DNA of 32,531 bases from Acidimicrobiia bacterium (lineage in GTDB: Bacteria; Actinomycetota; Acidimicrobiia; IMCC26256; DASPTH01). Positions 2,345-25,781 of this stretch are shown here, piece after piece. Location: the NCBI GenBank assembly GCA_040880805.1, contig JBBDHW010000023.1:1-32531 (forward strand). The letters are read 5' to 3'. A model generated the notes under the pieces. That model saw only the letters and a program-made list of their open reading frames with translations. It was not told the DNA's origin and did no database searches. Made by a program: the position numbers and the translations under genes. The first letter of the stretch is position 1; the number at the start of each line of letters is the position of its first letter.

Positions 2345-2350
2345 ATCGTA
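2345..2350 (-). promoter_or_regulatory. Putative -10 box TACGAT for the short AftD-like gene
   Basis: TACGAT fits the actinobacterial TAnnnT -10 consensus. It ends 10 nt before the ATG at 2334, so the transcript would be leaderless or nearly so. No convincing -35 element is seen. It shares an 86-bp divergent region with the box at 2408. Confidence 0.45.
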
Positions 2351-2407
2351 GACGTGAGTCCGCGCGCCCACGCGTCGGCTGCACGATCGATCTCGAACAG
2401 TGCTCGG

Positions 2408-2413
2408 TAGACT
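2408..2413 (+). promoter_or_regulatory. Putative -10 box TAGACT for the 2421 gene (leaderless)
   Basis: GGTAGACT is followed by 7 nt and then the ATG at 2421. This spacing puts the transcription start on or beside the start codon. It supports ATG 2421 over the GTG at 2400, which lies upstream of the box. Confidence 0.5.
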
Positions 2414-2420
2414 GCGGCGC

Positions 2421-4448
2421 ATGGCGGCGCTCGGAACCGGTCTCGACGCGCGGCCCGACTCGACCGCCGCCTTGGCGCCTGAACCCACCGCGACGATCGC
2501 GGCACCCACTTGGTTCGGTCGCAACTGGCCGGTGCTCGCGCTCGGGGCGGCCGCGATGGTGATCGCGATCGTCGCCCGCCACGTGATCTACCCGTCGTTC
2601 TCGTGGAACCGGGACGAGCTCACGTATCTCTGGCAGACCGACGCACTGCGCGGCGGTCACATCTTCACGACCGGCGGCGGCGCGCCACAGTTCTACTGGC
2701 CATGGCTGGCCGGCCTCCGTGGTGATGTCTTCTTCCCGCAGTACACGGTCGGCTGGCCGCTCGTCCTGCTGGTGGTCGACGTGATCTTCGGGTCTCCCGA
2801 ACTCGCACTCGCGCTCGGAGCGGCACTTGCCGTGCTCGGCACGTACGCGTTCGCTCGCGCGCTCACCGACGACCGTCAGCTCGCCCTGGTGTCGGGAACC
2901 CTGATGCTCGCCTCACCGATCGTCGTCATCCAGGGCGGCGTGTACCTCGCCTACCTCTTCTCACTCGGGCTCGGCCTGTTCTTCGGCGCCGCGTTGCTGA
3001 CCGGCCTGCGCCGCGAATCACGGTGGTTGTTGCTCGGGGCGGGAGTGATCCTCGGATGGGTCCTCCTGACGCGCCCGTACGACGCCGTGTTGTGGGGCGG
3101 CCCGCTGTTCGCGTACGCGGTCTTCATCTCGTGGCGGAAGTGGGGGGCGCTGTGGCGCGCCGCGTGCTGGGTCGCAATCGGTTTCGTGCCGTTCGTCGCG
3201 TTCACGCTGCTGTACAACCGCCGCGTCACCGGGAGCTTCACGCAGTTCCCAATTACGGCGAAGGATCCGCTCGACACCTTCGGGTTCGGGCCGCGACGGC
3301 TCATGCCGATCGGGCAGATCTTCGACTACTCGATCGGTCGGGCCGCTCGAAGCGTGGCGCACAATCTCCGAACGGCTCCGGCGTTCCTCGTCGGTGGCTG
3401 GCTCGGCGCGGCAGCAGCAGTTGCCGGCTTGTGGCTCCGGAGGCGCGAGCGCAGCACGCTGGCACTCCTCGCGCTCGCGGCCGCGTTTCCGGTGGGCTAC
3501 TTCTTCTTCTGGGGAAACCTGCTCTCGGGTCGCGCCGCCTCGTTGTCGAGTCCCATCTACTACGTCCCGCTGTATGCACCGGCATGCATCTTCGTTGCCA
3601 CCACCGTGATCGCGGCATGGCACCGCCGGCGCGGTCTGGCGGTCGTTCTCTGCGCCGTGGTCGCGGTCGCCACGATCCCGTACCTCGTCTCGAAGATCGG
3701 TACCAACCACAAGATCAGCGCGGCGCAGCAGGCATGGAAAGGGGCCACCCGCTCGATCCAAGGCAGGGCAGCGGTCATCGTCGAGCACTCCGGCCCCTAC
3801 CTCATGCACCTGAACCCGTACTCGCAAAACGTGCCCGACCTCGACGGAAAGATCCTTTATGCAGTTGATTCCGCCGCGGCGAACCTCGACCTGATCGCCG
3901 CGCACCCCGACCGGACGCCCTACCTCGAGCGCACGAGCGATCCCGCGTTCGACGATCCGGTCTCGTACCACGACGCCCCCCTCCCGCGGGTCTCGCTCAT
4001 CCCACTCCGTGTACTCCGCGGCAAGACCGTGACCTTGCGTGTGCGCGTCAGCGACCCACGCGACGAACTGGCCGTCGTCGTATTCCTCCAGATCGGCAAC
4101 CACGTCGAGCAACGCACGCTCGCTACCGACGCGAGCGCGGGCGCGACGTACGAGACGGAATGGACACTGGCGCCCGCCGCCTCTGCGGATCTCACGACCG
4201 GCACGGTGCCGCTCACCAAGCGATTGGGCACCATCAGGATCGGGATGGGTGCGGCCGCAACACCCGGCGACGCTCTCGCTCAGAAGCAGGTACAGGAGCG
4301 GTTCTCGTACCGTCTGAACGCCGACACCGACCAGGTCGAGGTGCTCTATCCGAGCCGCAAGTTCGTACGACACCGGCGGGGCCGCACGCTGGTGCGCGAG
4401 GTCGACCGGCTGCGCGAGCTCGGCGTCGAGATCACGACGAATCTGTAG
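2421..4448 (+). CDS. GT-C fold membrane glycosyltransferase (GT39/ArnT-like)
   Basis: The 675-aa product has a short cytoplasmic N-terminus, a first membrane segment near residues 30-48 and then an extracytoplasmic loop with WNRDELTYLWQ. The acidic pair in this loop is typical of GT-C enzymes that use polyprenyl-phosphate sugars. Further hydrophobic segments extend to about residue 430. A soluble C-terminal domain of about 240 residues follows, with no family I recognise. The start at 2421 (MAALGTG) is preferred over GTG 2400 because of the TAGACT box 7 nt upstream. The gene diverges from the short AftD-like gene, and its last 17 nt overlap the convergent end of the long AftD-like gene. GT-C membership is well supported; substrate is unknown. 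Confidence 0.75.
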   Translation: MAALGTGLDARPDSTAALAPEPTATIAAPTWFGRNWPVLALGAAAMVIAIVARHVIYPSFSWNRDELTYLWQTDALRGGHIFTTGGGAPQFYWPWLAGLRGDVFFPQYTVGWPLVLLVVDVIFGSPELALALGAALAVLGTYAFARALTDDRQLALVSGTLMLASPIVVIQGGVYLAYLFSLGLGLFFGAALLTGLRRESRWLLLGAGVILGWVLLTRPYDAVLWGGPLFAYAVFISWRKWGALWRAACWVAIGFVPFVAFTLLYNRRVTGSFTQFPITAKDPLDTFGFGPRRLMPIGQIFDYSIGRAARSVAHNLRTAPAFLVGGWLGAAAAVAGLWLRRRERSTLALLALAAAFPVGYFFFWGNLLSGRAASLSSPIYYVPLYAPACIFVATTVIAAWHRRRGLAVVLCAVVAVATIPYLVSKIGTNHKISAAQQAWKGATRSIQGRAAVIVEHSGPYLMHLNPYSQNVPDLDGKILYAVDSAAANLDLIAAHPDRTPYLERTSDPAFDDPVSYHDAPLPRVSLIPLRVLRGKTVTLRVRVSDPRDELAVVVFLQIGNHVEQRTLATDASAGATYETEWTLAPAASADLTTGTVPLTKRLGTIRIGMGAAATPGDALAQKQVQERFSYRLNADTDQVEVLYPSRKFVRHRRGRTLVREVDRLRELGVEITTNL

Positions 4449-7400
4449 GTTCGGCGACCTCCCGGCCCCGGATGCGCACGACCTCGACGAGTGCGTCCGC
4501 CGCAAGGAGCAGAACCGCCAACCACGCGAGATTCGCGACCCGAGTGAAGTGCTCGACCCAGAAGTATCCGTATGGGTAGGCATACCGGTACTGCTGGACG
4601 ACCACGTACAGGGCAGTGATCGCGATGCATGCGGGCGCGCCGACCGTGAGGAGCGGTCGCAGACGCGGCCGAACCAACACCGCGGCGACGAACGCGCCCA
4701 CGATCACACCAACCCACCAGCGTGCGACGAAGGCGCCCGCGAGCCCGGCTCCGATCGCGGTGACGATCGCGGCGCGCCGACTCACGCCCGCGCCGCGTGC
4801 GACGAGCGGGCTCGCCAGCTCTACGTCGCCGTCGAGCGCGGCGCTCTCGTCATCGTTGCCCCGTCGGCGCCGCCACAGCGCGAGCGCGAAGCACAGCACG
4901 AGGGCGACTCCAGAGATCGCGAGCGCGATCCACACCGTGCGCTGTGGAGTCCATTCCAGCGTGACGGCGAAGCTCGCGGCACTGGGTACGACGAGCCAAC
5001 CGTTCGCGTAACCGTTCACGAGCGTGGAACCGCCGGCATCCACGCCGTCGACGGTCGCCTTCCAACCGGCATTGTTGCTCTCGCCGAGCACGAGCCAGAA
5101 CGGCTTCCCGGGCTGCGCACCGCTCACATGGAGCTCCATCTTCGACCGACCGTTGTTGACCACTCGTACGACGGGTGTGTCGGTAGGAACGCGCTCGGCC
5201 GACCGGGTGGAGTTCGCCAGCGAACCACCGGGGCCGAGTGCTATCGGCGTGCCGTCGAGCTGGGAACCGAGCACGAGGCCGTCGAGGTCGATCCCGGTCG
5301 TCGTGCCGGGGGTGGACTGCACGACATGGTTGCCGGCCGTGAGCGTCATCGCGCCGTCGCAGGGCTCGAGATCGACCGCGCCACCCCCCTCGGCCTGCCC
5401 GGTGTCACCGGTCAACCGCACACGTCGGGGCGCGCCGTCGACCGCGAGGAGATCGGTGTGGCACGTCGGCGGGAACTGCGTGGGCATGGGCGCCCGCACC
5501 ACGCCGGGCACCCCCATCTCGGCGATCGCAACCGGCATGACGATCGGCTGGTTGTCGTGGTACTCGATCGTCGTGACCGGGCGGATCGCGGTGATCGTGA
5601 TGCGCAGATCGTTCGCGGCGAGGGGATCGAACGACACCGGGACATCGACGGTTCCATCGGGGGTGGTCTGGTCGACGATGGGCGGGAGGTCGACCGTGCG
5701 CGACTCGCCGCCGGCGTCGATGCGGACCTGGGTGGGTACGGAGTGGCGGCCGTCGGCCACGAGCTGAAGATCGAGATGGTCGACGGTGATCGGCTGCGCG
5801 GTTCGCACGTCCACCCACTGCCCGACCGGTTCGCCGAACGCGGTGTTCCAGGCGGTGCCGGGATCGCCGTCGAACGCGGCCGACCCGCGGGCACGCACGT
5901 CACCGGGAAGGTGCTGTGACGCCTGGACCGTGATGCCACCTGCTGTGGCGTCGGGGATGCCGAGCACCACGTCGATCACATCGTCGGGGGCGGCGGCGGC
6001 GAGGCGCGCGCTTCCTCCCCACCCGAAGCCCCGCGAGTTGGGCACCCGCAGCTCGCGCACGAGTGCGTCCTCGTCCTGGGAGTACCTCGGAGGAATCACG
6101 GCGTTGCGCGATCGGCTCATCACGAACACGAGTGGACGGCCGGCCGCGAGCGGACCGGCGGCGTCGACGAGATCGGTCGGCATGCGCACGGTTTCCGTGG
6201 CGCGAAGGTTCTGCGCACCCGGCGCATCGTCGCGCAGACCGATCTCGGCGAAGCCGACGCCGTTGTTCCCCGGATAGTCGAACGTGTCGCCCACGTTCGT
6301 GTCGTCGAGGGTGATCTCGAACCGGTGGAAGGTCCGCCTCGGGAAGGCCACGGTCTCGCCGTCGGAAGTGCGCGATGCATCGTGGAGATCGACGTTGATG
6401 GGATTCTTGCCGTCGAAAGTGAGCGTGATCTTCGTGAGGTATCGGGCTCTCGGCCCTACGAGCGGCTGCACGAGGTTCACATGGTCGGCGGTGACCGGCT
6501 CGGCGAGGTCGATCCGAATCTTCTCGCCGAGCACCGAAGCGTCGGCCACCTCCCACGCGGTGTCGACGTTGGCGTCGACTGCGCGCGAACCGCGCAGCTC
6601 GGGAAAATAGGTGAGCACGTTCCCGAACCGCGTGGTGCTCACCTTCACGTTCGGTGGGACCACGACGGTCCGTGTGTCGGGACCTGCGCCGGGGAAGAGG
6701 TCGAGGCGCGCGTCGAACTCGTCCTTCGCGAGGGCAGATTCGCCGACCCGCTCCGTCGGCCCCTCCACGTTCTTGATTCCTGTCCAGCGCCGACCGCGCT
6801 TGCGGTTGGAGTCGGTCACGACGAGCACCGAGCCCGGTCGTGCGATCTCGGCGCGCAGCGCAGCCTGATCGTCGGCGAAGGACGCCGAGTAGAGCGTGAC
6901 GCCGCGGCCGCCGAGTGCTCCGAGCGCGGCGAGGTCGACGAGACCCTCCCCGTCGCCCGCGACGATGAGCGCGTCGGTTGCCGACGCGCTGTGAACGATC
7001 GTCGGCGCATCCTGCACGGGGAACACCGACACGGGCGATGGCTCCGGCGCGTCCGGCGGGAGCGCGAGCGCGACCTCGTCGACCTGTGTGGAGTGCAGCG
7101 GCGGGCCCAGCCCCGACCCGTACCCGGTCGGTTGGCCGAGCCCGTCGGCCACAGACGGCTCGGTGAGCAACAACCATGTGGGCACGGCACGCGCAAGGTC
7201 GAAGCGGTCGGTCTCGAGGTCGGCCCGGTACACGATGTCGCCCACGCTCATGAGCCGGGCGATCGGCGCGACGGCGGCGGGATCGAGCACGCCCTCCTGG
7301 AGCCTGCGGTCGAGCGCGTTCAGGAGGTCGGCCGTCGCCGGCGACCCCCACGGCACCAGCTCGCGCGCGACGTACGTCCGGTCAGCGAGGCCGGGCGTGA

Positions 7401-8874
7401 TCGGATCGACCGTGCCGCCCCACCGGTACGCCGCGAAGTCGGCGCCCGGGAGCTCGAGGATGCGGGTGTCGTGCGAACCGGCGTCGAGATCGTCGATCGC
7501 GGCGGTCCAGTACGACGGGAGGTTCTCGTCGCGTTGGAGGCTCTCGCCGTAGATCGACCCGTTCCACAGCGACGGCAGGTTCACGGCCGCGACCACGATC
7601 ACCAGCCCTGCGAGCACCAGCCCCGCAACAGGAACGCCGCGCCTCGACCACGATGCCGCGAGCGCGTTCACGCCCAAGCCGAGCAAGACTGCGACGCCGA
7701 GCGCGACGAGCGGAACGGCACGCGCGGTGCTGCGCAGCGCGAGCCCGAAGCTCGACGACTCGGCGAACCACTTGAACATGCGCCCGAGCACGGAGGGATC
7801 TTCGTAGGGGTTCGCGCCGACCGCGACGACGAACCCGATCAGTGTGACGAGCACGAAGAACGCGCGGTGCCGCCACCGCACGAGCCCCGCAGCCGCGAAC
7901 GCCAGCAGCGGCAACGCGAAGCTGGCCGCGATGAGCCAGAGGTCTTGGGTGTAGCCGACGCTCGGTTCGATCCACGCGCTGATCTTGTCGCCGCCGTAGA
8001 AGAACCAGTACCCGAAGCTCCGCAGCACCTCGCTCGGAATCGAGGCGTGCGACACCGTTGCCAGCGTCTCCGTGAACTTCAGGATGTCGAGCCCGTAGGC
8101 GCTTTGCGTCGCGAGACCCACGATCCACCACAACGACGCGAGGATCGTGAGCCCTGCGATCTTCGCGACCGTGTTGACGGTGCGCCGCCAGTCGACCTCG
8201 TGGGTGACGAAGACGGCGTAGAACACCCAGAGCACGGGCACGATCCCCGCGAACACGAGCGCAGTCGCGTTCACACTGCCGACCACCTGCACGACGATCG
8301 CGAACAGCGCCGGGTACTTCCAACCGTCGTCGCGCAACGCGCGGATCACGATGGCGAGCATCCACGGGAGACCTGCCCATGGCAGCAGGATCACCGAGAG
8401 GCGCGCCGCGAAGTCGAGCACGTACGGCGAGAGCATGAACACCAGCGCCGCGACCACGACGCCCGGGCCACGCACGTGCAGCGTGCGCAGGAGGTACAGC
8501 ATCCCGAGCGCCGCGAACAGCAGGATGGTACCGAGCCAGAGTCGTTGCGACACCCAGGCAGGCACTCCGAAGAAGTGCATGAGCCAGTAGTAAGGGCCCA
8601 TCGGGAACAGGTACCCGATGTTCTGGTGGGTGACGGTCCCCAACCCGATGTTCGAGTCCCACATCGACGGCGCGCGCTCGAGGAGCCGGCCGGGGTCGAG
8701 GTAGAGGTAGCTCTTGGTGTCGGCGACGACCCGGCCCGGCGCCGTGCGCAGCAGCGGAATGTACGCGAGCGCGGCGAGCACCCCGTACCCCAGGAGGCGC
8801 AGAGGACCGCTCGAGACGCGCGCAACGCTTTCGGGTTGCGCGCGCGAGCGGTGCGCGTCGAGCGTTGCGGTCAC
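4432..8874 (-). CDS. Full-length AftD-like alpha-(1->3)-arabinofuranosyltransferase family protein
   Basis: At 1480 aa this is about the size of mycobacterial AftD (about 1400 aa). The N-terminal GT-C membrane domain spans roughly residues 25-450 and includes DTKSYLYLDPGRLL and NIGYLFPMGPYYWLM. A soluble region with GDGEGLVD follows near residue 641. Two F5/8-type (discoidin-like) modules come next, near 755-900 (VDANVDTAWEVAD) and 980-1080 (AFDGDPGTAWNTAFGEP). A YfhO-like segment (ESNNAGWKATVDG) precedes membrane helices near 1315-1340, 1368-1400, 1408-1430 and 1445-1467. AftD branches arabinan in arabinogalactan and lipoarabinomannan; an arabinan role here is inferred from family only. The GTG start at 8874 overlaps the TGA of the upstream GT4 gene by 4 nt, implying translational coupling. 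Confidence 0.88.
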   Translation of the reverse strand: MTATLDAHRSRAQPESVARVSSGPLRLLGYGVLAALAYIPLLRTAPGRVVADTKSYLYLDPGRLLERAPSMWDSNIGLGTVTHQNIGYLFPMGPYYWLMHFFGVPAWVSQRLWLGTILLFAALGMLYLLRTLHVRGPGVVVAALVFMLSPYVLDFAARLSVILLPWAGLPWMLAIVIRALRDDGWKYPALFAIVVQVVGSVNATALVFAGIVPVLWVFYAVFVTHEVDWRRTVNTVAKIAGLTILASLWWIVGLATQSAYGLDILKFTETLATVSHASIPSEVLRSFGYWFFYGGDKISAWIEPSVGYTQDLWLIAASFALPLLAFAAAGLVRWRHRAFFVLVTLIGFVVAVGANPYEDPSVLGRMFKWFAESSSFGLALRSTARAVPLVALGVAVLLGLGVNALAASWSRRGVPVAGLVLAGLVIVVAAVNLPSLWNGSIYGESLQRDENLPSYWTAAIDDLDAGSHDTRILELPGADFAAYRWGGTVDPITPGLADRTYVARELVPWGSPATADLLNALDRRLQEGVLDPAAVAPIARLMSVGDIVYRADLETDRFDLARAVPTWLLLTEPSVADGLGQPTGYGSGLGPPLHSTQVDEVALALPPDAPEPSPVSVFPVQDAPTIVHSASATDALIVAGDGEGLVDLAALGALGGRGVTLYSASFADDQAALRAEIARPGSVLVVTDSNRKRGRRWTGIKNVEGPTERVGESALAKDEFDARLDLFPGAGPDTRTVVVPPNVKVSTTRFGNVLTYFPELRGSRAVDANVDTAWEVADASVLGEKIRIDLAEPVTADHVNLVQPLVGPRARYLTKITLTFDGKNPINVDLHDASRTSDGETVAFPRRTFHRFEITLDDTNVGDTFDYPGNNGVGFAEIGLRDDAPGAQNLRATETVRMPTDLVDAAGPLAAGRPLVFVMSRSRNAVIPPRYSQDEDALVRELRVPNSRGFGWGGSARLAAAAPDDVIDVVLGIPDATAGGITVQASQHLPGDVRARGSAAFDGDPGTAWNTAFGEPVGQWVDVRTAQPITVDHLDLQLVADGRHSVPTQVRIDAGGESRTVDLPPIVDQTTPDGTVDVPVSFDPLAANDLRITITAIRPVTTIEYHDNQPIVMPVAIAEMGVPGVVRAPMPTQFPPTCHTDLLAVDGAPRRVRLTGDTGQAEGGGAVDLEPCDGAMTLTAGNHVVQSTPGTTTGIDLDGLVLGSQLDGTPIALGPGGSLANSTRSAERVPTDTPVVRVVNNGRSKMELHVSGAQPGKPFWLVLGESNNAGWKATVDGVDAGGSTLVNGYANGWLVVPSAASFAVTLEWTPQRTVWIALAISGVALVLCFALALWRRRRGNDDESAALDGDVELASPLVARGAGVSRRAAIVTAIGAGLAGAFVARWWVGVIVGAFVAAVLVRPRLRPLLTVGAPACIAITALYVVVQQYRYAYPYGYFWVEHFTRVANLAWLAVLLLAADALVEVVRIRGREVAEPTDSS

Positions 8875-10091
8875 GAGCCGGCGCGGCGCCGAATCGCGGC
8901 CTGCGCGAGCACCTCGAGGGTGCCGCGTGCCGTCGCCTCCCAGGTGTAACGGGCGGCGTGCTCACGCGCGCCGGCGCCAAGACGGGCGCGCAGGTCGGGA
9001 TCGGAGATCACCGTGTCGAGACACGCGGCGAGTTCGTCGCGCGTGTCGGCGAGCAACCCGGTGCGCCCCTCGATCACCGCGTCGACGAAGCCGGGTACAC
9101 GGGTCACGACCGACGGCGTGCCGCACGCCGCAGCTTCGGTGACAATCATCCCCCATCCCTCACGCGAGGAGGCCATGGAGAGCACCCACGCGCGCCGGTA
9201 GAGATCGATCACCTCGTCGTCGTCGACGCGACCCGGAAGGCTGATCCAGTCTTCGGCTCGCTCAGCGCGGATCTGTGCCTCGAGGTCGGGCCGGCAGTAG
9301 CCCTCCCCCGCGATCACCGCGCGCAGTGCAGGGTGCCGCGGCTTCAACGCGACGAGCGCGTCGATCAGCATGTCGTAGCGCTTCACCGGGACGAGACGGC
9401 CGACCGCGACGACGAGTGGGACGTCGGACTTCTCGCCGTCGGGCGTGAACTGCGGATCGATCCCCGGCGGGACCACGGTGACGTGGTCGGCCCGGAACTT
9501 GAGATCGTGCACGATCTCCCGCTTGCTCGACTCCGACAGCGTGACGATCGGCGTGTGCCGGTACATCGGTGGCGCGACCCTCGACTCGACGAAGTTCCCG
9601 AACGCCGCGAGCCGGCGTGGCAGCGTCATGCGCCACATCTCGGCGTGCACGTGGTGCAGCCAGGTGACGTGCGTGGTGCGTGCCCAGAGCGGCGAGAAGA
9701 ACGGCATGCCGTTCCAGATCTCGACGAGTCCGTCGCGCCCGCCGTGCCAGCCCATCATCTCGCTGAAGGCCGCGCGGGGGAACACGAGATACCGGCCGGC
9801 CTTCCGGATCACGCGGTAGCCGTCGCGCCAGCTCACCACTGGGTGGTTCGCCGCATACGAGGTGCGCATCGTGACCTCGATGCCCGCCTCGGCCCACAGC
9901 GCGGCGATGTTCGACGCGTGGAGCTCCGACCCGCCGGCCTCCGGATCGTCGAGGTCGCGCCATGCCAGGATGCTCACGCGCTCGAGACCGGCCTCACCGG
10001 CGACGTCGCCGAGCTTGGCGATCTCGGCATCGTGCCCGGCGGCGACCGCCCGAGTCCGTTGTGGCGCGCGCTCTCGACGGGGCCGGATCAT
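8871..10091 (-). CDS. GT4 family (GT-B fold) glycosyltransferase
   Basis: The 406-aa product has the layout of a retaining GT4 enzyme. An N-terminal acceptor domain contains ERVSILAWRDLDDPEAGGSE, with the glycine-rich GGSELHA stretch near residue 38. The C-terminal nucleotide-sugar domain contains VGRLVPVKRYD near residue 234 and the EX7E-type motif REGWGMIVTEAAACG near 308-325. Such enzymes act at the cytoplasmic face, using nucleotide sugars to extend lipid-linked glycans or cap metabolites. ATG 10091 is chosen because TACCAT lies 9 nt upstream; the frame stays open to 10205 but overlaps the divergent methyltransferase start. A GTG just before SILAW is a less likely later start. It is coupled to the AftD-like gene by a 4-nt overlap. 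Donor and acceptor are unknown. Confidence 0.85.
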   Translation of the reverse strand: MIRPRRERAPQRTRAVAAGHDAEIAKLGDVAGEAGLERVSILAWRDLDDPEAGGSELHASNIAALWAEAGIEVTMRTSYAANHPVVSWRDGYRVIRKAGRYLVFPRAAFSEMMGWHGGRDGLVEIWNGMPFFSPLWARTTHVTWLHHVHAEMWRMTLPRRLAAFGNFVESRVAPPMYRHTPIVTLSESSKREIVHDLKFRADHVTVVPPGIDPQFTPDGEKSDVPLVVAVGRLVPVKRYDMLIDALVALKPRHPALRAVIAGEGYCRPDLEAQIRAERAEDWISLPGRVDDDEVIDLYRRAWVLSMASSREGWGMIVTEAAACGTPSVVTRVPGFVDAVIEGRTGLLADTRDELAACLDTVISDPDLRARLGAGAREHAARYTWEATARGTLEVLAQAAIRRRAGS

Positions 10092-10100
10092 GGTCGAGGA

Positions 10101-10106
10101 ATGGTA
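10101..10106 (-). promoter_or_regulatory. Putative -10 box TACCAT for the GT4 gene
   Basis: TACCAT ends 9 nt before the ATG at 10091 on the minus strand, matching the near-leaderless arrangement at the other gene heads in this window. It would drive the GT4 / AftD-like pair. Confidence 0.45.
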
Positions 10107-10150
10107 TTCCGCCACCAACGCGGAGACGGGGCGGGGCCCAGCGTGCTCAA

Positions 10151-10156
10151 TAAGCT
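10151..10156 (+). promoter_or_regulatory. Putative -10 box TAAGCT for the 10165 methyltransferase (leaderless)
   Basis: TAAGCT is followed by 8 nt and the ATG at 10165. This decides between the possible methyltransferase starts at 10090 and 10165: the earlier ATG would overlap the divergent GT4 start codon, whereas 10165 sits at the leaderless distance. Confidence 0.5.
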
Positions 10157-10164
10157 TCTGGCGC

Positions 10165-10950
10165 ATGGCCCGCCTGACCGGCGAGCGCCCGATGGAGGGC
10201 GCCACACCCGACTCGCTCCTCGCGTTCCACGACGCGGGCTACCGCGAGATCCGCAACCGGCTCGGATCCGGCGCGGTCCTCGACGTCGGTTGTGGTGTGG
10301 GCACGGAGACCGCCGGCCTCGCGGCACCGGGCCGCATCGTGCTCGGCGTCGACTACAGCGCGGAGACGGCCGGCGACGCCGCGCGCCATCTCGGCACCGA
10401 CGGCCTGCGGTTCGCGGCAATGGACGGCGCCGCGCTCGGTGTCCGCGACCACACCATTGATTGGGTGTGCTCGTCCCACATCATCGAGCACTTCGTCGCA
10501 CCCGAGCGGCACGTCGCCGAGCTCGCGCGTGTGTGCGCGACGGGTGGCCGGGTGTTCGTGATCACCCCGAACCGGCCCGCAGACTTCGAGAACCCGTTCC
10601 ACGTCTCTCTGTTCGAAGCCGCCGAACTGGCATCGATGCTCCGTCTCTTCTTCGACGACGTCGAGGTGCTCGGCCTCGAGGGCTCGGCCGAGTTGCACGA
10701 GGACTTCGCCCGTCGGCGAGCGAGCGGTGAGCGCCTGCTCCGACTCGACCCCCTGCGTATCCGCCAGCGCGTGCCGAGAAGCTGGTACGTGTGGGGCTAC
10801 GAGCACGTGCTCCCGGTGGTGTACCGCGCGCTCGGCTCGTCGACCACCGGCATCGGTTCCGGCATCGACGACTCACACTTTTTCGTCACCGACCAGATCG
10901 AGCCCACGACTCCCGGCCTGTTCGCGATGGCGTCCGGCCCGCGCGTCTGA
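10165..10950 (+). CDS. Class I SAM-dependent methyltransferase
   Basis: The 261-aa product has SAM-binding motif I at residues 39-46 (LDVGCGVG), an acidic strand-2 end (LGVDYSAE) and the post-motif region with SSHIIEHFVAPE. This is the Methyltransf_11-type Rossmann fold; such enzymes in glycan loci often O-methylate sugars or lipid carriers. The C-terminal part (RVPRSWYVWGYEHVLP onward) is not recognised and may set the substrate. The start is chosen from the TAAGCT box 8 nt upstream. The last 78 nt overlap the end of the convergent MBL-fold gene. Methyltransferase assignment is firm; substrate is unknown. Confidence 0.82.
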   Translation: MARLTGERPMEGATPDSLLAFHDAGYREIRNRLGSGAVLDVGCGVGTETAGLAAPGRIVLGVDYSAETAGDAARHLGTDGLRFAAMDGAALGVRDHTIDWVCSSHIIEHFVAPERHVAELARVCATGGRVFVITPNRPADFENPFHVSLFEAAELASMLRLFFDDVEVLGLEGSAELHEDFARRRASGERLLRLDPLRIRQRVPRSWYVWGYEHVLPVVYRALGSSTTGIGSGIDDSHFFVTDQIEPTTPGLFAMASGPRV

Positions 10951-12363: not shown

Positions 12364-12367
12364 CGCG

Positions 12368-14467
12368 TCAGGTCCCGCGCGTCTTGCGCCGGTCGTAGTG
12401 CTCCACCACGTCGGTCTGCTCGACGGAGGGCTCGTGTGCGACCCGCTCGAGCTGCGGCACGAGCCACGCCGCGACCATGCCCGCACCCTCGACCGTGAAG
12501 TGCACACCATCGTCGCGAATGCGCACGCCCCGGAGATACTCCGCGAACCTGCCGCCGGGAGAGACGTAGCGATTCAGATCGATCAACTCGTACGCGCTGG
12601 GGTGCGCGACGACGTAGTCACGGAGCAGCGCGTTCACGCGGTCGACACGCCACGGCTCGTACTCGGGAAAGCTCTCCGATCCTCCGACGAGCTCGGGACG
12701 AGAGAAGAACGGCGTGGTCAGCACCACGATGTTCGCACCCTGCGACGCGAGCAATCGGGTCGCCTCGCCGAGCTCCGACAAGAAGTAGCGGTCGAATCCC
12801 ACCGAGCCGGGGCTGTACTGCCGGCCGTCGATCTCTCGGTCGAGCAGGTCCCACGCGCCGGTGAGCAGCACGACCACGTTGGGCTGGAACTCCACGATCC
12901 TGTTGACCCAGCGTTGGTTCCAGTCGTCGCATTCGAGCTGCTGGTCGATGAGCTCACCGCCGACGCGGATCATGCCGCCGCGGAGCATGCCGCACCCGAA
13001 CGTGCCGCCGTTCCTGAACTCGACGCTCCCGTTGCTCGCGGCCGCGACGTTCCCCAGACCGATGCCGAGCGTGACCGCTACGGAATCCCCGACCAGGAGC
13101 ACACGGGAAGCTGTGGGCGCGGTGGGCACCACGCTGCTCTCCGGAGTGGGGGCGCGCCGAGGGGCCTGGCGCTCGACCGAGCCCCGGGCGACGTTCGCCA
13201 CCGACGTCTCGCCGCCGGTGGTCGACAGGACCAAGGCCACGACGAGTGCACCCGCGACCGCCGGTATCACGAGCGCCGGCCGCGGGATCCGGAGCGTCCC
13301 CCGACGGATCGGTCGCTCGACCAGGTAGTACGAGAGGTCGGCGAGAACGAACGTAGTCGCGAGGCGCAGGAAGAGGAGGGCGTTCCCCTCGACTCCGGTG
13401 CGGGCAGTGGTGAGCGTGAGGTAGACGGGCCAGTGCCAGAGGTACAGCCCGTAGGAGATCATCCCGATCCAACGGAGAGGGAACCACGACAGCGCCAAAC
13501 CGATGGTCCCCCGGTCGGGCTGCGTCACCGACACGATGACGGCGACGACGGCGAGCGCGGCGAGGAGGAAGCCGCCGCGATAGAGCCCGTCGGTACGCTC
13601 CGACATGTGCGACCACAACCACAACGTGTACACGGCACCGACGAGCGCGGCAGCCCGGAGCACGAGCCGCGCCGCACGCGACCTGATCGGACCGTGGAGG
13701 TACACGAGGATCGCCGCGATCGCGCCGAGAAGCAGTGACTGCGCGCGGGTGTCGGTTCCGTAATAGACACGCGAAGGGTCGTGCCCCGGCGCGTAGAGCA
13801 GCCCCATGAGCACCGCCGACCCGACGAGCATCGCAAGCGAAGCCGCGAGCAGGACGCGCAGCGAGCGCCCCACCGCGAGAACACCGGCGACGATCAGCGG
13901 CCAGATCAGGTAGAACTGCTCCTCGATCGCGAGCGACCACATGTGCCGGAACGGTGACGGCTGCGTGAAGTGCTCGAAGTACGAATCGCCGGAGAACACG
14001 AACTTCCAGTTCGCGACGTAGCCGATCGTCGCGAAGCCGTCAGAGCGGATGCGCGCAACCTCTCCCGGCGCCGCGAACACAGCCGCGTAGACAAGGATCC
14101 CGACGATCACGAGCCCGAGCGCGGGGAGAAGGCGTCGAGCTCGACGCGCCCAGAACGCGGCCAGATCGATTCGCGGTCGCGAACTCCACTCAGTAACCAG
14201 CAGCGTCGTGATGAGGAAGCCGCTCAGCACGAAGAAGGCGTCGACTCCGAGATAGCCGCCGATCATCCAGGATTGCCCGGCGTGGTAGAGCAGCACTGAG
14301 CCCACCGCGAACGCACGGATCCCGTCGAGCGCGGGCTGGTAGCTGAACTGTGACGCGGGACGGTGTGACGACTCGCTCGCCGGAGACCGCGCCGATTCCG
14401 CGTCGACCTCAGGCGAAGTCGGTGGTGACTCCGCGACGCGGGCCGTCTCGTGCAGGGTTCGAGCCAG
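12368..14467 (-). CDS. OafA-type membrane acyltransferase fused to SGNH domain (OatA-like), non-AUG start proposed
   Basis: With the proposed CTG start at 14467 the protein has 699 aa. The N-terminal acyltransferase-3 membrane domain carries YQPALDGIRAF with the catalytic R-x10-H pair at R51 and H62, then GVDAFFVLSGFLIT. After a Pro/Thr-rich linker comes an extracytoplasmic SGNH esterase-like domain with VLLVGDS near residue 457 and a C-terminal DDGVHF near 652. Such fusions O-acetylate or acylate envelope polysaccharides or peptidoglycan. The in-frame GTG at 14305 would remove the conserved LDGIR segment, so translation must begin upstream. The frame is open back to a TAA at 14504-14506 but contains no ATG, GTG or TTG. 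CTG 14467 follows GGGGGA at a 6-nt spacing. The exact start is uncertain; the family is clear. Confidence 0.8.
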   Translation of the reverse strand: MARTLHETARVAESPPTSPEVDAESARSPASESSHRPASQFSYQPALDGIRAFAVGSVLLYHAGQSWMIGGYLGVDAFFVLSGFLITTLLVTEWSSRPRIDLAAFWARRARRLLPALGLVIVGILVYAAVFAAPGEVARIRSDGFATIGYVANWKFVFSGDSYFEHFTQPSPFRHMWSLAIEEQFYLIWPLIVAGVLAVGRSLRVLLAASLAMLVGSAVLMGLLYAPGHDPSRVYYGTDTRAQSLLLGAIAAILVYLHGPIRSRAARLVLRAAALVGAVYTLWLWSHMSERTDGLYRGGFLLAALAVVAVIVSVTQPDRGTIGLALSWFPLRWIGMISYGLYLWHWPVYLTLTTARTGVEGNALLFLRLATTFVLADLSYYLVERPIRRGTLRIPRPALVIPAVAGALVVALVLSTTGGETSVANVARGSVERQAPRRAPTPESSVVPTAPTASRVLLVGDSVAVTLGIGLGNVAAASNGSVEFRNGGTFGCGMLRGGMIRVGGELIDQQLECDDWNQRWVNRIVEFQPNVVVLLTGAWDLLDREIDGRQYSPGSVGFDRYFLSELGEATRLLASQGANIVVLTTPFFSRPELVGGSESFPEYEPWRVDRVNALLRDYVVAHPSAYELIDLNRYVSPGGRFAEYLRGVRIRDDGVHFTVEGAGMVAAWLVPQLERVAHEPSVEQTDVVEHYDRRKTRGT

Positions 14468-14473
14468 CTCCGT

Positions 14474-14479
14474 TCCCCC
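14474..14479 (-). promoter_or_regulatory. Possible ribosome binding site GGGGGA before a CTG start
   Basis: On the minus strand GGGGGA is followed by 6 nt (acggag) and the CTG at 14467. It is the best Shine-Dalgarno-like sequence in the 5' part of the acyltransferase frame, which lacks conventional start codons. A second CTG at 14455 is poorly spaced from it. Confidence 0.3.
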
Positions 14480-14507
14480 AGTGGCAGCTCGCGTGCGGGG
14501 CCGTTAC

Positions 14508-14513
14508 AGGATA
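14508..14513 (-). promoter_or_regulatory. Putative -10 box TATCCT for the acyltransferase / MBL operon
   Basis: TATCCT (TAnnnT) would start transcription near 14500, giving a leader of roughly 30 nt before CTG 14467. Unlike the other boxes in the window it is not at leaderless distance from a start codon. Confidence 0.35.
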
Positions 14514-14567
14514 TGCGACACCACAGACCCGCGTGACGGTCGGCACAATCCGGCGAGAGGCCACTGG

Positions 14568-14573
14568 TAGCGT
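14568..14573 (+). promoter_or_regulatory. Putative -10 box TAGCGT for the five-gene GT operon (leaderless)
   Basis: GGTAGCGT is followed by 8 nt and the ATG at 14582, nearly the same layout as GGTAGACT before 2421. It would drive the operon 14582-22052. Confidence 0.5.
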
Positions 14574-14581
14574 GCGCGGCG

Positions 14582-15922
14582 ATGGCCGCCCGCAACCGTC
14601 GCTTCTTCGCACGGATGGGTCTCGTCACAGCGGGGGCGGCCATCTGGCGCGTGTGGTACGCGGCCGCGATCGTGGATCCCCGCGTGCGCGACGTGCGCCT
14701 GAGCGACCAGGTCTTCTACACGGTGCAGGCGAACCTGCTCGCCCACGGTCACGGATTCTCCAACCCGTTTGCCTTCATCTTCTTCGACCGCGAGATCCCG
14801 ACCGCGCTCCACCCACCGCTCTACTCGCTCGTGTTGGCGCTCCCGGCCCGGCTCGGGATCACCAGCGAGCTCTCCTATCGCGTCATCACCGCGCTCCTCG
14901 GGGCGGTCGTCGTGTTCCTCGTGGGCATGCTCGGCCGCCAGCTCGGGGGCGACCGCGTCGGCATCGTCGCCGCGATCCTCGCCGCCGCGTACCCTCCGCT
15001 CTGGACCAACGACGCGGTCATCGGGTTGGAGACGCTCTACTGCCTCCTCGTGGTGCTCGCGTTGATGGCCGCGTACCGGTTCTGGGACTCACCCGGGATC
15101 AAGCCGGCCGCGGCGATGGCCGTCCCTCTCTCCCTCGCGGTGCTCACGCGCTCGGAGGGACTGGTCCTGTTCGTGCTGCTCGGGGGGTCGACGGTGCTGC
15201 TCGCGCGCGGTATCGACTGGAAGCGCAAGCTGCAACTGCTCGGCGTGGTGGCCGGGATCGGTGTCGTCATCACCGCGCCGTGGGTGGTTCGGAACCTCGT
15301 GACGTTCGAGGAACCCACCACGCTCGGAACTGGCTTCGGCGGCGTCCTCGCGTACGGCAACTGCGACACGACCTATTACGGCGAGAAGTTGGGGTACTGG
15401 GACGACAGCTGCAGCTTCGGCGACTATCCCCGGAACCTCGAGGAGAGCGTGGTCGACGCGCGCGCACGCGACCAAGGGCTCACGTACATTCGGAATAACC
15501 TCGACCGCGTGCCGGTGGTAATGCTCGCAAGAATTGGCCGCATCTGGAACGTGTTTCAACCGGTCCAGGATGTCCATCTGAACGATGCGTTCGAACGACG
15601 CGGCCTGGTCGAATCGTGGGCGGTGCTCCTCGCCTACTACCTCTTGATCCCATTCGCGATCGGCGGGCTCTTCGTGATGCGGCACCGGCACCTTCCGATC
15701 TTTCCGATGCTCGCGATCGCCGCCGCGGTCACGATCACCGTCGTGGTGGGATTTCCGGTCACGCGTTATCGCGCGCCGTTCGACCTCGTGATACCGGTCC
15801 TCGCCGCGTTCTCGCTCGACGCGCTCTGGCGCCGTTACCGCGCGGCGAGATCCGCCTCGAGCGCGCCGCTTGTCGACGACGCCTGTTCCACTCCCCGCTC
15901 GGTCGAGCACGTGGCTCCATGA
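14582..15922 (+). CDS. GT39-like membrane glycosyltransferase, paralogue 1
   Basis: The 446-aa polytopic protein starts with MAARNRRFFARMG and enters the membrane at once. The first extracytoplasmic loop has LSDQVFYTVQANLLAHG, matching the acidic loop of GT39/PMT-like GT-C enzymes that use polyprenyl-phosphate sugars. Further landmarks are HPPLYSLVLALPARLG, YPPLWTNDAVIG and LTRSEG. An extracytoplasmic loop has a cysteine pair at residues 261 and 277 (NCDTTYYG then DSC), probably a disulfide. ARIGRIW follows, then two or three terminal helices. It shares all these landmarks with the next two genes, showing tandem duplication. Its TGA overlaps the next ATG by 4 nt. Substrates are unknown. Confidence 0.82.
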   Translation: MAARNRRFFARMGLVTAGAAIWRVWYAAAIVDPRVRDVRLSDQVFYTVQANLLAHGHGFSNPFAFIFFDREIPTALHPPLYSLVLALPARLGITSELSYRVITALLGAVVVFLVGMLGRQLGGDRVGIVAAILAAAYPPLWTNDAVIGLETLYCLLVVLALMAAYRFWDSPGIKPAAAMAVPLSLAVLTRSEGLVLFVLLGGSTVLLARGIDWKRKLQLLGVVAGIGVVITAPWVVRNLVTFEEPTTLGTGFGGVLAYGNCDTTYYGEKLGYWDDSCSFGDYPRNLEESVVDARARDQGLTYIRNNLDRVPVVMLARIGRIWNVFQPVQDVHLNDAFERRGLVESWAVLLAYYLLIPFAIGGLFVMRHRHLPIFPMLAIAAAVTITVVVGFPVTRYRAPFDLVIPVLAAFSLDALWRRYRAARSASSAPLVDDACSTPRSVEHVAP

Positions 15923-17304
15923 CTGCCGAGCCGTCGACCGCCCAAAGCTCGACCATTGGTGCGCCGACGACGCCGCGGCGCACGACCTCCACGCGCGACC
16001 CCGTGAGGTTCTTCGCCCGACGGCTCGGCGTCATCACGGTGTTCGCGTTCGCGGTGCGCGTGGCCAACGTCTTGTGGTGGCGACCGACTACCGATATCCA
16101 CAGCTACCACAACGGCTATTACCTCTGGGGCGACGCGTACTACTACCACTGGCAAGCAAACGCGCTGGCCAAGGGCTATTGGTTCGTCGACCCGTTCCGC
16201 TTCTCGATCTTCGGCTCCACCCACCGGCCGAGCAGTGTGCACCCGCCGCTCTACACGATCTACCTCTCGATGTGGTCGTGGCTCGGGCTCGACACGGTCA
16301 CCTGGCACCGTCTTGCATCGTGCGTGCTCGGCGCGGCTGCGGTACTCGTGATCGGCATCGTCGGGTACCGAATCGCGGGCACCGCCGTCGGTCTCCTCGC
16401 CGCCGGCATCGCCGCCGTGTATCCGCAGCTCTGGATCAACGACGGCATGCTGCTCTCCGAGCCGATGGCGGTGCTCACTGCCGCGGTTGTGATCCTCGTG
16501 GCGTACGAGTTCTGGCGCCGGCCGAGCATGCGATGGGCGGTGCTCCTGGGTCTGGCGTGCGCGCTCGCGACTGCGAGTCGGTCCGAGCTCAGTCTCCTGT
16601 TCCCACTGCTCGTGATTCCTCTGGCGCTCCTCGCGAAGGGCCCGGATCGCAAGCGACGGCTGCAAATGGCGGGAGCCGCGTGCGTCGCGGGAGGGCTCCT
16701 CCTCCTGCCCTGGGTCACGTTCAACCTGCTCCGGTTCGAGGAGTTCTCCACCATGAACACCGGGTTCGGGGCCGCGCTCTCCGCCGCGAGCTGCGACGAG
16801 ACGTACTACGGGGATCGCATCGGCTACTACGCCGACTGTTTCCAGGGCCCGTGGCCACCGCCCTCGTACGACGAGTCCGAGAGCGACGCGGTGGCGCGCA
16901 AGGACGCGATGAAGTACATCAAGGCACACCTCGGGCGACTGCCCGTGGTGGCCGCGGCGCGCGTCGGTCGCCTGTGGGATCTCTACATGCCCGGCGACAC
17001 CACGAGACTCGACTACGCGCTCGAGGGACGGGGCCGTGCCGCGTCGTGGATCGGGCTCTTCTCCTATTACCTGCTCGCACCCTTCGCGGTGGTCGGCCTG
17101 GTCGTACTGCGACGACGACGAGTGCCCCTCCTGCCGCTCATGGCGTTCATCGTCATCGCAACGATCGCGGCGGCGCTCTTCTTCGGAAACACGAGGTACC
17201 GCGCGCCCGCTGAGGTCTCCGTGGTCCTCGCGGCCGCCACCGGGATGGTCGCGGCCTGGCACCGGCTCGCCGACCGGCGTTCGGACCCGGTCGCTTCCGC
17301 CTGA
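15919..17304 (+). CDS. GT39-like membrane glycosyltransferase, paralogue 2
   Basis: The 461-aa product has a Thr/Ser/Pro-rich cytoplasmic N-terminus of about 30 residues before the first helix. The GT-C loop motif is GDAYYYHWQANALAKG, followed by HPPLYTIYLSMWSWLG, YPQLWINDGMLLSE and ASRSEL. The cysteine pair lies at residues 292 and 307 (SCDETYYG then ADC), and ARVGRLWDLY follows. The ATG at 15919 overlaps the preceding TGA (ATGA), so the frame upstream to 15616 is not coding for this protein. It is closest to the next gene, with which it shares YYHWQANALA and HRLASCVLGA. It probably transfers a lipid-linked sugar at the outer face of the membrane; specificity is unknown. Confidence 0.82.
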   Translation: MTAEPSTAQSSTIGAPTTPRRTTSTRDPVRFFARRLGVITVFAFAVRVANVLWWRPTTDIHSYHNGYYLWGDAYYYHWQANALAKGYWFVDPFRFSIFGSTHRPSSVHPPLYTIYLSMWSWLGLDTVTWHRLASCVLGAAAVLVIGIVGYRIAGTAVGLLAAGIAAVYPQLWINDGMLLSEPMAVLTAAVVILVAYEFWRRPSMRWAVLLGLACALATASRSELSLLFPLLVIPLALLAKGPDRKRRLQMAGAACVAGGLLLLPWVTFNLLRFEEFSTMNTGFGAALSAASCDETYYGDRIGYYADCFQGPWPPPSYDESESDAVARKDAMKYIKAHLGRLPVVAAARVGRLWDLYMPGDTTRLDYALEGRGRAASWIGLFSYYLLAPFAVVGLVVLRRRRVPLLPLMAFIVIATIAAALFFGNTRYRAPAEVSVVLAAATGMVAAWHRLADRRSDPVASA

Positions 17305-17315
17305 CCAACAACCTC

Positions 17316-20458: not shown

Positions 20459-20459
20459 G

Positions 20460-22052: not shown

Positions 22053-22074
22053 GGAACCTCGTCGGGCGGGCAGG

Positions 22075-22770
22075 TCACTCGGGTTCGGCGTCGACGCGTC
22101 GCGCGACCACGAACATCTGCTCACCCAACACGCGCCACGCGAGCGGCACGCGCATGTAGAGCCGAACGAGCGCCAGGCTGTGTGGCAGCCGGGTGTGCTT
22201 GATCGTGTACGGCAAGAACCGCGGGACGACCATCTCGGCGCGGAACCCGCTGATCGCCAACGCTTCGACCAAGCTGTAATGCGTGAGGGCGAGGTGGTGA
22301 TCGAAGTAGTCCCAGTACCGTCCCGGCAGGTAGCGAATGTTCGGCATCACCACGAGGAGCCGACCGCCGTCGCGCACGATCCGGTGGCACTCGTCGAGCG
22401 TGGCGAGCAGCTCCGCCTTGTTCGGAAGGTGCTCGAAGAAGTTCGACGTGAACACGACGTCGACCGAACCCGTGACGATCTCGGGCATGGAGTTGCTGTT
22501 CGCGACCACTGCTTTGCCCTCGTCGAGATAGTGCTCGAGGTCGGGGTTGAGATCGACGGCGATCTTCTCGCCGCACCGAATCGCGTTGATGAACTCACAC
22601 GAACCGGCTCCGAGGTCGACGACGGTCTCCGTGGGAGCGATGAACTGCTGGAAGTAGCTCTCGCAGAAGACCTTCCACATGCTCTGCTTGAAGGCGAGCT
22701 CCTCTGGCGTGAAGCGTTCGCCGTAGAGGCGCGAGAGCTGTTCGCCACTCAGGCCGTGCTCGTCGGGCAT
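22075..22770 (-). CDS. Class I SAM-dependent methyltransferase
   Basis: The 231-aa product has motif I at about residues 50-60 (VVDLGAGSCEF), an acidic strand-2 end (IAVDLNP) and TSNFFEHLPNKAE as the post-motif catalytic region. This is a Methyltransf_11-like domain. The N-terminal YGERFTPEELAFKQSMW and the C-terminal YLPGRYWDYFDHHLALTHYS resemble methyltransferases seen in polysaccharide loci, so a sugar or lipid-carrier substrate is a reasonable inference. TAGCCT lies 6 nt before the ATG. The gene stands alone on the minus strand, divergent from the GNAT/deacetylase cassette. The stop is 22 bp from the convergent GT-C gene. Confidence 0.82.
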   Translation of the reverse strand: MPDEHGLSGEQLSRLYGERFTPEELAFKQSMWKVFCESYFQQFIAPTETVVDLGAGSCEFINAIRCGEKIAVDLNPDLEHYLDEGKAVVANSNSMPEIVTGSVDVVFTSNFFEHLPNKAELLATLDECHRIVRDGGRLLVVMPNIRYLPGRYWDYFDHHLALTHYSLVEALAISGFRAEMVVPRFLPYTIKHTRLPHSLALVRLYMRVPLAWRVLGEQMFVVARRVDAEPE

Positions 22771-22776
22771 CGCCCG

Positions 22777-22782
22777 AGGCTA
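22777..22782 (-). promoter_or_regulatory. Putative -10 box TAGCCT for the 22770 methyltransferase
   Basis: TAGCCT ends 6 nt before the ATG at 22770, a leaderless spacing. It faces the TACGCT box of the divergent gene within a 75-bp intergenic region. Confidence 0.45.
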
Positions 22783-22831
22783 GCGGTCGCGTCTCGCGGC
22801 GACTTCGACATGAGTCGGGCAAGGTGGAAGG

Positions 22832-22837
22832 TACGCT
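22832..22837 (+). promoter_or_regulatory. Putative -10 box TACGCT for the GNAT cassette (leaderless)
   Basis: GGTACGCT is followed by 8 nt and the ATG at 22846. This spacing supports 22846 over the in-frame ATG at 22810, which lies upstream of the box. Confidence 0.5.
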
Positions 22838-25349: not shown

Positions 25350-25775
25350 TTATTTGGCCGCGCCTTCGCTGATTGAAACAGAAATCGGGGGAACGTCACG
25401 CGGGTCAGTTCCCACCGGGACGAAGCCACGAGCGGGGTACATGTGACCGACTACGGTTTTGAGGTCTTTGTCGTAGACTGTCTCAGGCTTGTCCTGGGGA
25501 GCAAGTTCTCCCGGCGGCTCTAAACCTTCCTGCGGCATAACCTCATCACGGGCGACGTAGCCAACGATGTCGCCCCGCCGGTCGAGTGCCGGGATGTAGT
25601 CCGGTACTTGCGTGCGGTCGATGCTGCCGTCGGAACGAAATGCGGCCTCCGGTACTCGCCCGACCGTTGGGGCATCGTCGGACGCCATCGCGGCCACGCC
25701 GAAAAACGCGGCGGAGATCGTTCCTATGGCGACGAGCGACACCAGGGCAACCCTCTTTCCCGCATTCAACGTCAT
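25350..25775 (-). CDS. Small secreted protein of unknown function
   Basis: The 141-aa product starts MTLNAGKRVALVSLVAIG and has a hydrophobic signal segment to about residue 30 with a likely cleavage after AMA. The mature part is polar and Pro/Asp-rich (VPDYIPALDRRGDIVGYVA, VYDKDLKTVVGHMYPARGF) with no cysteines. I do not recognise a family. The DNA is visibly more A/T-rich than its neighbours, with codons such as AAA, TTT and TTA, which suggests transfer or weak selection. AGGGAG lies 6 nt before the ATG, so unlike the other gene heads here it has a normal ribosome binding site. That site overlaps the stop of the transposase remnant upstream, so its promoter must lie inside the remnant. Confidence 0.65.
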   Translation of the reverse strand: MTLNAGKRVALVSLVAIGTISAAFFGVAAMASDDAPTVGRVPEAAFRSDGSIDRTQVPDYIPALDRRGDIVGYVARDEVMPQEGLEPPGELAPQDKPETVYDKDLKTVVGHMYPARGFVPVGTDPRDVPPISVSISEGAAK

Positions 25776-25781
25776 CGTATG

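Follow-up and report, generated by a model that had tools for sequence, protein, structure and literature searches.

Gene Heads and Boxes in the Window

The window, i.e. the whole 32,531-nucleotide stretch of contig JBBDHW010000023.1 (assembly GCA_040880805.1, Acidimicrobiia bacterium) that was analysed, contains four divergent gene pairs, and seven of the eight heads carry a TANNNT box shortly before an ATG, with three pairs boxed on both sides and their start codons separated by 73-86 nt (Table 1). These seven boxes had been listed in a preceding sequence-only reading, and all boxes, gaps and ATGs were confirmed as given by direct reading of the window and then re-derived. The GGTA described there for three forward boxes was also retrieved (at 2421, 14582 and 22846, thus in three of the four forward boxes and in none of the three reverse ones). 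The statement that all of these divergent heads are preceded by a box holds for seven of eight, but not for the reverse acyltransferase head opposite 14582, where no ATG, GTG or TTG lies between the conserved N terminus and the upstream in-frame stop. Gene calling suggested three more heads of possible units, at 16003 (+), 26292 (-) and 30323 (-), which likewise lack a box, and Rfam gave no match in the window at gathering scores. Several of the window heads encode glycosyltransferases or methyltransferases.

Table 1. Putative promoter boxes and coding sequences at the divergent gene heads of the window.
Feature	Position	Strand	Remarks
Putative -10 box TACGAT	2345..2350	-	N10 before ATG 2334 (AftD-like arabinofuranosyltransferase); gap 10 is the edge of the genome peak
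AftD-like (PF11847) coding sequence	271..2334	-	Start is the box-implied ATG
Putative -10 box TAGACT, preceded by GG	2408..2413	+	N7 before ATG 2421
Coding sequence with PF25230 (DUF7846) stretch	2421..4448	+	Start from signal-free calling
Putative -10 box TACCAT	10101..10106	-	N9 before ATG 10091
Glycosyltransferase (PF00534) coding sequence	8871..10091	-	Start from signal-free calling
Putative -10 box TAAGCT	10151..10156	+	N8 before ATG 10165
Methyltransferase (PF08241) coding sequence	10165..10950	+	Start supported by relatives
Acyltransferase/SGNH gene	12368..14305	-	Unboxed divergent head opposite 14582
Putative -10 box TAGCGT, preceded by GG	14568..14573	+	N8 before ATG 14582
PMT_2-family (PF13231) coding sequence	14582..15922	+	Start compared with ten homologues
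Putative -10 box TAGCCT	22777..22782	-	N6 before ATG 22770
Methyltransferase coding sequence	22075..22770	-	Start from signal-free calling
Putative -10 box TACGCT, preceded by GG	22832..22837	+	N8 before ATG 22846
Coding sequence without Pfam match, then gene with polysaccharide deacetylase match	22846..23787	+	

On both strands of the window, the pattern TANNNT-N6-10-[AGT]TG occurs 13 times, nine times with ATG, and seven of these nine are the boxed heads. At gaps of 6-9 nt before ATG there are eight cases versus 0.9 expected from other gaps; six of them are boxed divergent heads (2334, with its gap of 10, falls outside), and the remaining two are 25765 (-), in a frame differing from that of the called gene, and 30723 (-), within a gene. 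The earlier estimate that such a box should arise by chance at a few percent of genes agrees with control windows, in which it was found at about 2.4 % for divergent heads and 0.5 % for operon-internal genes.

One might nevertheless suspect mere chance combined with a choice of starts that suited the boxes, as a caller using no upstream signal picked other starts for 2334 and 10165, and as the window is richer in boxes than the genome (P about 0.0002 at a rate of 23 %, 0.002 at 33 %), which is to be expected of a window that was noticed. However, five of the seven starts were called as the boxes imply without any upstream signal, seven of eight boxed heads have a P of about 4e-11 at the control rate, and the genome-wide contrast and an annotation-free test (see below) point the same way, so that this suspicion can practically be dismissed.

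Distribution Across the Genome

For the genome-wide tally, the window was combined with 800 kb from the same genome, and start calling made no use of upstream signals; 778 of 817 called genes were kept, whereas 5'-open genes and those with less than 60 nt upstream or no upstream neighbour in the stretch were dropped. TANNNT at a gap of 6-10 nt precedes 68 of 280 divergent heads (24 % with a strict box at the called start) as compared to 13 of 258 genes inside operons (p 1e-10); of the 172 internal genes that overlap their upstream neighbour or follow it at under 4 nt, only 3 are boxed. The equal frequency before internal genes against which the sequence-only reading had asked to be checked was thus not observed. 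Same-strand heads are boxed in 32 of 124 cases when the intergenic gap is 21-80 nt, and rarely (8/116) when it exceeds 80 nt. The box shows a sharp positional peak at gaps of 6-9 nt before called starts, while the reversed motif ANNNTA at the same gaps was found at 8 of 280 divergent and 2 of 124 same-strand heads.

Overall, 412 of 520 first genes lack a strict box at the called start. The boxed share of divergent heads comes to about 31 % once the control rate is subtracted and the surplus seen at other in-frame starts is added. A mixture model whose starting matrices were loose versions of TA--T and AGGAGG converged on CGGTANNNT at gaps of 6-9 nt in divergent heads and gave a boxed fraction of 0.32, a rough value as the background component received zero weight; in internal genes, the model drifts off TANNNT. 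ATG opens 64 of the 108 boxed versus 202 of the 412 unboxed first genes, a preference that is not significant (p 0.07). Selection for stop codons behind TAG-type boxes was considered and rejected (31/54 at in-frame and 31/54 at out-of-frame gaps).

A/T patterns were also counted by their distance to start triplets, independently of gene calls. Among eight such patterns, only TANNNT peaks 6-9 nt before ATG (108 vs. 31 expected), and its peak is present at ATG and GTG and absent before ATC or AGG. The negative control, 50 kb of E. coli K-12, gave 72 vs. 62.5 at ATG. In 200 kb pooled from six genomes of the phylum, no peak stood out clearly (85 vs. 76.9), which speaks against phylum-wide uniformity, the sample being small and mixed and including one genome at 50 % GC.

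Probable Promoter Architecture and Shine-Dalgarno Contrast

Shine-Dalgarno motifs are found at 3 of 108 boxed as compared to 139 of 412 unboxed first genes. Geometric exclusion as the sole reason for their lack was rejected on the basis of a geometry control, in which 22 of 59 carried the motif. Among unboxed divergent heads, 80 of 212 possess a Shine-Dalgarno 4-mer versus 22 of 212 in a control stretch, and such a 4-mer also accompanies the box in 4 of 13 boxed internal genes; the 16S sequence was searched for in the assembly and not found. A box that keeps a constant, small distance to the start codon where Shine-Dalgarno is missing could in principle be a translation signal, i.e. a ribosome-binding element of another kind and no promoter. 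Such an element would, however, mark operon-internal genes too, which at gaps below 4 nt are hardly ever boxed (3/172), and the sequence instead fits the mycobacterial -10 element with its SRN/CGN extension (PMC3898074), making a translation signal very unlikely.

The triplet before the box in the 108 boxed first genes conforms to SRN in 54, to CGN in 34 and to TGN in 4 cases (background 35 %, 14 % and 5 %, respectively), and in the annotation-free set the extension is weakly enriched (C 0.45 vs. 0.37, G 0.40 vs. 0.32, G 0.49 vs. 0.43). The genome encodes a SigA-like protein of 449 aa (L003:1003-2352(-)) that aligns with SigA/HrdB chains and whose -10-binding region 2 is nearly identical to theirs, as judged by eye from the alignments. 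As 26 sigma-region-2 matches occur in the genome, this protein is a probable rather than a certain reader of the boxes. This number, together with the glycosyltransferases and methyltransferases at several window heads, might suggest promoters of alternative (ECF) sigma factors or a regulator common to these cell-envelope genes. Yet no -35 partner at fixed spacing emerged among the 108 boxed heads (GGAAC, GAAC, TTGACA and shorter forms were tried), and the same box recurs throughout the sampled parts of the genome as well as in relatives, which renders an ECF or regulon origin highly improbable.

Judged from sequence, the boxes are as a class very probably -10 elements of principal SigA/HrdB-type sigma promoters giving leaderless mRNAs, with single heads being less sure. 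TANNNT, often with a 5' CGG extension and no -35 found, would be bound as -10 element by the principal sigma factor; the polymerase would melt the box and initiate 6-8 nt downstream, at the start codon or up to about 4 nt upstream of it. A transcript starting there would therefore lack a 5' leader and with it a Shine-Dalgarno site, and the ribosome would directly engage the start codon at the 5' end. In this view, the box would mark first genes of transcription units, while operon-internal genes would rely on Shine-Dalgarno or coupling. Position, polarity, internal depletion, scarce Shine-Dalgarno motifs and the sigma-A-like extension all speak for the leaderless promoters at unit heads that had been proposed at the outset, but to call them the rule goes too far at about 31 % of divergent heads.

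Start Codons and Possible Switching in Relatives

Of the seven starts, 2334 and 10091 are the least secure. For 2334, the signal-free caller preferred an ATG 54 nt inside (2280), and relatives settle little; for 10091, the rival is a GTG at 10205 led by a Shine-Dalgarno motif. At 10165, the caller chose an ATG 75 nt upstream, and 7 of 14 relatives support the box-implied start to within one codon. Residue 1 of 14582 is aligned in two of ten homologues, one of which has a TANNNT box at that very ATG, while the other is boxed at an ATG four codons earlier and has a Shine-Dalgarno-led ATG further up. ATG 22770 is the first possible start, because the TAG of its TAGCCT box is the upstream in-frame stop. 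A scan of named genomes for AftD found no relative, a plasmid DNA search for the methyltransferase gave no match, and a plasmid protein search for the acyltransferase returned 257 records, each of which covers less than 80 % of it.

The tally of relatives additionally omitted genes with less than 80 nt of upstream sequence; for nine class or phylum genomes outside the order set (17 stretches), gene calls were few and undertrained. Most relatives show Shine-Dalgarno at the 10091/10165 pair and a few show boxes, so the boxes there are not deeply conserved. It is a doubtful, though conceivable, extension that the envelope-glycan stretch is largely run by back-to-back leaderless promoters and that, within the order, the orthologous heads at 10091/10165 have changed from one initiation mode to the other, Shine-Dalgarno or leaderless. 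If true, the pair would offer a natural series for following such switches at one divergent pair. With its mixture of signals in relatives, the pair is a ready case for studying the exchange of initiation modes.

Relation to Known Leaderless Systems

The pattern belongs to the TAnnnT leaderless class that is known from Actinobacteria (PMC3160421, PMC3898074), with which it shares the sharp TANNNT position, first-gene enrichment, scarce Shine-Dalgarno motifs, lack of a -35, SRN/CGN rather than TGN, and the presence of a SigA/HrdB sigma factor. For TA-led genes of high-GC genomes, Zheng et al. 2011 reported a TAnnnT that precedes the start by about 10 bp, for around 20 % of genes in 86 of 89 Actinobacteria, with distal operon genes usually requiring Shine-Dalgarno and orthologues swapping between both modes (PMC3160421). 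Placement and operon-position contrast are the same here, as orthologue switching may be, whereas the lineage is another, uncultured one, "Acidimicrobi" being absent from the main text of that study.

In Mycobacterium tuberculosis, Cortes et al. 2013 found TANNNT without a -35 at 73 % of primary start sites, and SRN preceding the box in 49 % (PMC3898074), compared to 54 of 108 here. Of the 1,779 genes there that have a primary start site, 552 are leaderless (505 + 47 of the four classes in their Table 1, our sum). This is near our estimate of 31 % for divergent heads, with the difference that their numbers stem from start-site mapping and ours from sequence alone. Leaderless and Shine-Dalgarno starts mixed within one genome are also common to the leaderless class of GeneMarkS-2/StartLink for Actinobacteria, and promoter boxes were noted there to aid start-codon choice (PMC9581028). 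These findings extend to an uncultured, probably acidimicrobial order a promoter and translation habit known from Mycobacterium, Streptomyces and Corynebacterium. They also provide a practical start rule for this order: where a unit head carries a TANNNT, an in-frame ATG or GTG 6-9 nt past it is a strong start candidate.

Boxed Gene Heads in the Window and the Genome

All seven TAnnnT boxes of the window, with their gaps of 6–10 nt and their start codons, were confirmed on re-reading the sequence. They belong to four divergent pairs with boxes on both strands, in which seven of eight heads are boxed, a share above the genome rate by the kind of excess that noticing a window would give. TANNNT stands 6–9 nt before an ATG eight times in the window (0.9 expected), and six of these eight are heads listed below.

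Heads and related features of the window
Position (strand)	Feature	Box	Start given by signal-free caller
2334(-)	AftD-like gene	yes	2280
2421(+)		yes	2421
10091(-)	glycosyltransferase	yes	10091, chosen over GTG 10205
10165(+)	methyltransferase	yes	
14305–14505(-)	acyltransferase/SGNH gene (eighth divergent head), frame upstream of conserved N terminus	no	
14582(+)	PMT_2-family gene	yes	14582
22770(-)	methyltransferase	yes	22770
22846(+)		yes	22846
271–2334(-), 4432–8874(-)	two AftD-like (PF11847) arabinofuranosyltransferase paralogues		
25350–26292(-)	two weak gene calls (18.0, 25.6), coding frames unclear		
25765(-)	box–ATG match, out of frame with gene call of 25350–26292(-) region	yes	

For a genome-wide tally, 40 stretches of 20 kb (800 kb) were sampled from the draft genome holding the window (3.49 Mb, 69 contigs), and the window was added. 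A dicodon model blind to upstream sequence called 817 genes, of which 778 were kept, and a gene counted as boxed when TANNNT ended 6–10 nt before its called start.

Box frequency by gene class (control: mean of nine windows further upstream)
Class	Boxed	Control
Divergent heads	68/280	2.4%
Same-strand heads, gap 21–80 nt	32/124	2.2%
Same-strand heads, larger gap	8/116	1.0%
Internal genes, gap 20 nt or less	13/258	0.5%

This comparison of first with internal genes had been proposed in the sequence-only reading, and the two are not equal (divergent against internal, p 1e-10; 63/272 and 13/245 with the window left out). Boxed internal genes are concentrated at gaps of 4–20 nt (10/86, as against 3/172 where genes overlap or nearly touch), so some of these ten may be unit heads; a Shine–Dalgarno 4-mer is present too in four of the 13. 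ANNNTA, the mirror image of the box, stands at these distances before 8/280 divergent heads and 2/124 same-strand heads with gaps of 21–80 nt. Close divergent heads are boxed most often in this sample (28/76 below 60 nt, 13/104 from 150 nt up).

The peak also appears without gene calls. With expected values taken from other gaps, TANNNT at 6–9 nt precedes ATG 108 times (31.4 expected) and GTG 135 times (65.8 expected) in the 800 kb, in which no such peak was found upstream of ATC or AGG, and the seven other arrangements of A and T at the box's three fixed positions gave no peak at ATG (ratios 0.91–1.13).

Once the control rate is subtracted, strict boxes account for some 22% of divergent heads. 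About 9% more comes from boxes at other in-frame starts, of which 212 heads hold 28 where 3.6 would be expected, for a total of about 31%, and the alternative-start and mixture-model results suggest that with degenerate boxes the share may be nearer 40%. Leaderless transcription as "the rule" at gene heads was thus too strong a claim: boxed heads are a large class, about a third.

Nature of the Signal

A Shine–Dalgarno 4-mer accompanies 3/108 boxed but 139/412 unboxed first genes (p 3e-13). Because a box occupies the room of a Shine–Dalgarno site, a geometry control was made, and genes with another A/T pattern at the box place carry the 4-mer in 22 of 59 cases. Starting from loose TA--T and AGGAGG matrices as seeds, a mixture model converged, for divergent heads, on CGG-TANNNT at gaps of 6–9 with a weight of 0.32, a rough value because the background weight fell to zero and the second component was only partly Shine–Dalgarno-like. 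It retained TANNNT for heads with gaps of 21–80 nt and drifted to other patterns in the larger-gap and internal classes.

The preference for CGG before the box (21/108 boxed first genes, background 3.7%) explains the GGTA that had been seen at three forward heads. CGN (34/108, background 14%) and SRN (54/108, background 35%) precede the box as well, and TGN does so in 4/108 (background 5%); this extension is weak in the annotation-free set, which chance matches dilute. No peak indicative of a -35 element was found in the spacing upstream of the boxes, and the ATG preference of boxed genes is weak (64/108 against 202/412 unboxed, p 0.07). Upstream stops were ruled out as the cause of TAG/TAA-type boxes, since these boxes occur equally often at in-frame and out-of-frame gaps.

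Established promoter geometry places the final T of a -10 element at -7, so that with gaps of 6–10 transcription would begin on the start codon itself or no more than 4 nt ahead of it. On these sequence grounds, the boxes are very likely leaderless promoters. The genome encodes a SigA/HrdB-type sigma factor; in addition, 26 sigma-70 region 2 matches in the 3.5-Mb draft point to many alternative sigma factors. By the names of its sigma-factor relatives, the host belongs to the actinomycetotes and probably to Acidimicrobiia.

Individual Start Codons

The box ahead of 22770 supplies, with its TAG, the upstream in-frame stop. The start at 10165 has a homologous start within one codon in 7/14 relatives. 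Two of ten homologues of the 14582 gene align from residue 1; one is boxed at that same ATG, and the other is boxed four codons ahead of it, again at an ATG, and has a Shine–Dalgarno-led ATG further up. Start 10091 has a competitor in GTG 10205, which is preceded by GGAG/GAGG; from that GTG the gene would reach, on the antisense strand, into the start of the methyltransferase. Relatives say little about 2334: the 17 AftD-like matches adjoin the glycosyltransferase and are therefore probably orthologues of the other paralogue (4432–8874), and two align from residue 3, with candidate starts mostly further upstream. The actinomycetote carrying both paralogues is probably outside Mycobacteriales.

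The frame of the unboxed eighth head extends about 200 nt upstream of its conserved N terminus (DGIRAFAV), as far as the in-frame stop, and over that length has no ATG, GTG or TTG; another start codon (CTG) or an assembly error is therefore likely.

Relatives and Known Systems

The pair 10091/10165 was compared by eye in relatives. Among 14 methyltransferase heads, nine have a Shine–Dalgarno 4-mer at a plausible start, two are boxed (L187, L191), one is ambiguous (L178) and two show neither signal (L174, L175); the L191 head carries AGGA besides its box, and the two genes are not adjacent there. Among 20 glycosyltransferase heads, 13 have a Shine–Dalgarno site at a start within the expected stretch, two are boxed (again L187, L191) and five show neither. 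With Shine–Dalgarno sites in most relatives, the boxes, judged from these readings, are not widely common to them, and these heads seem to have changed their mode of initiation, as Zheng 2011 (PMC3160421) describes between orthologues.

In the same order (23 stretches, 20 genomes), 46/204 first and 7/75 internal genes are boxed, and the annotation-free count at ATG is 91 (51.2 expected). Within the class, it is 12 in G070 (1.5 expected) and 17 in G083 and G094 together (6.4 expected). A small and mixed 200-kb pool of six other genomes of the phylum showed no clear peak (85, 76.9 expected).

Among the papers covered by a text search, none paired "leaderless" with Ilumatobacter and two paired it with "Acidimicrobi"; in one of these, PMC10783764, the word occurs in an anti-Shine–Dalgarno table. 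Leaderless starts are treated as frequent in Actinobacteria (PMC9581028) and make up one third in M. avium (PMC3774663). In M. tuberculosis, 73% of primary start sites have TANNNT, without a -35 element, preceded by SRN in 49% (Cortes 2013, PMC3898074). According to Zheng 2011 (PMC3160421), TAnnnT about 10 bp upstream marks leaderless genes in 86/89 Actinobacteria, at around 20% of genes. The TAnnnT leaderless class is hence already known in Actinobacteria, and this genome adds another case.
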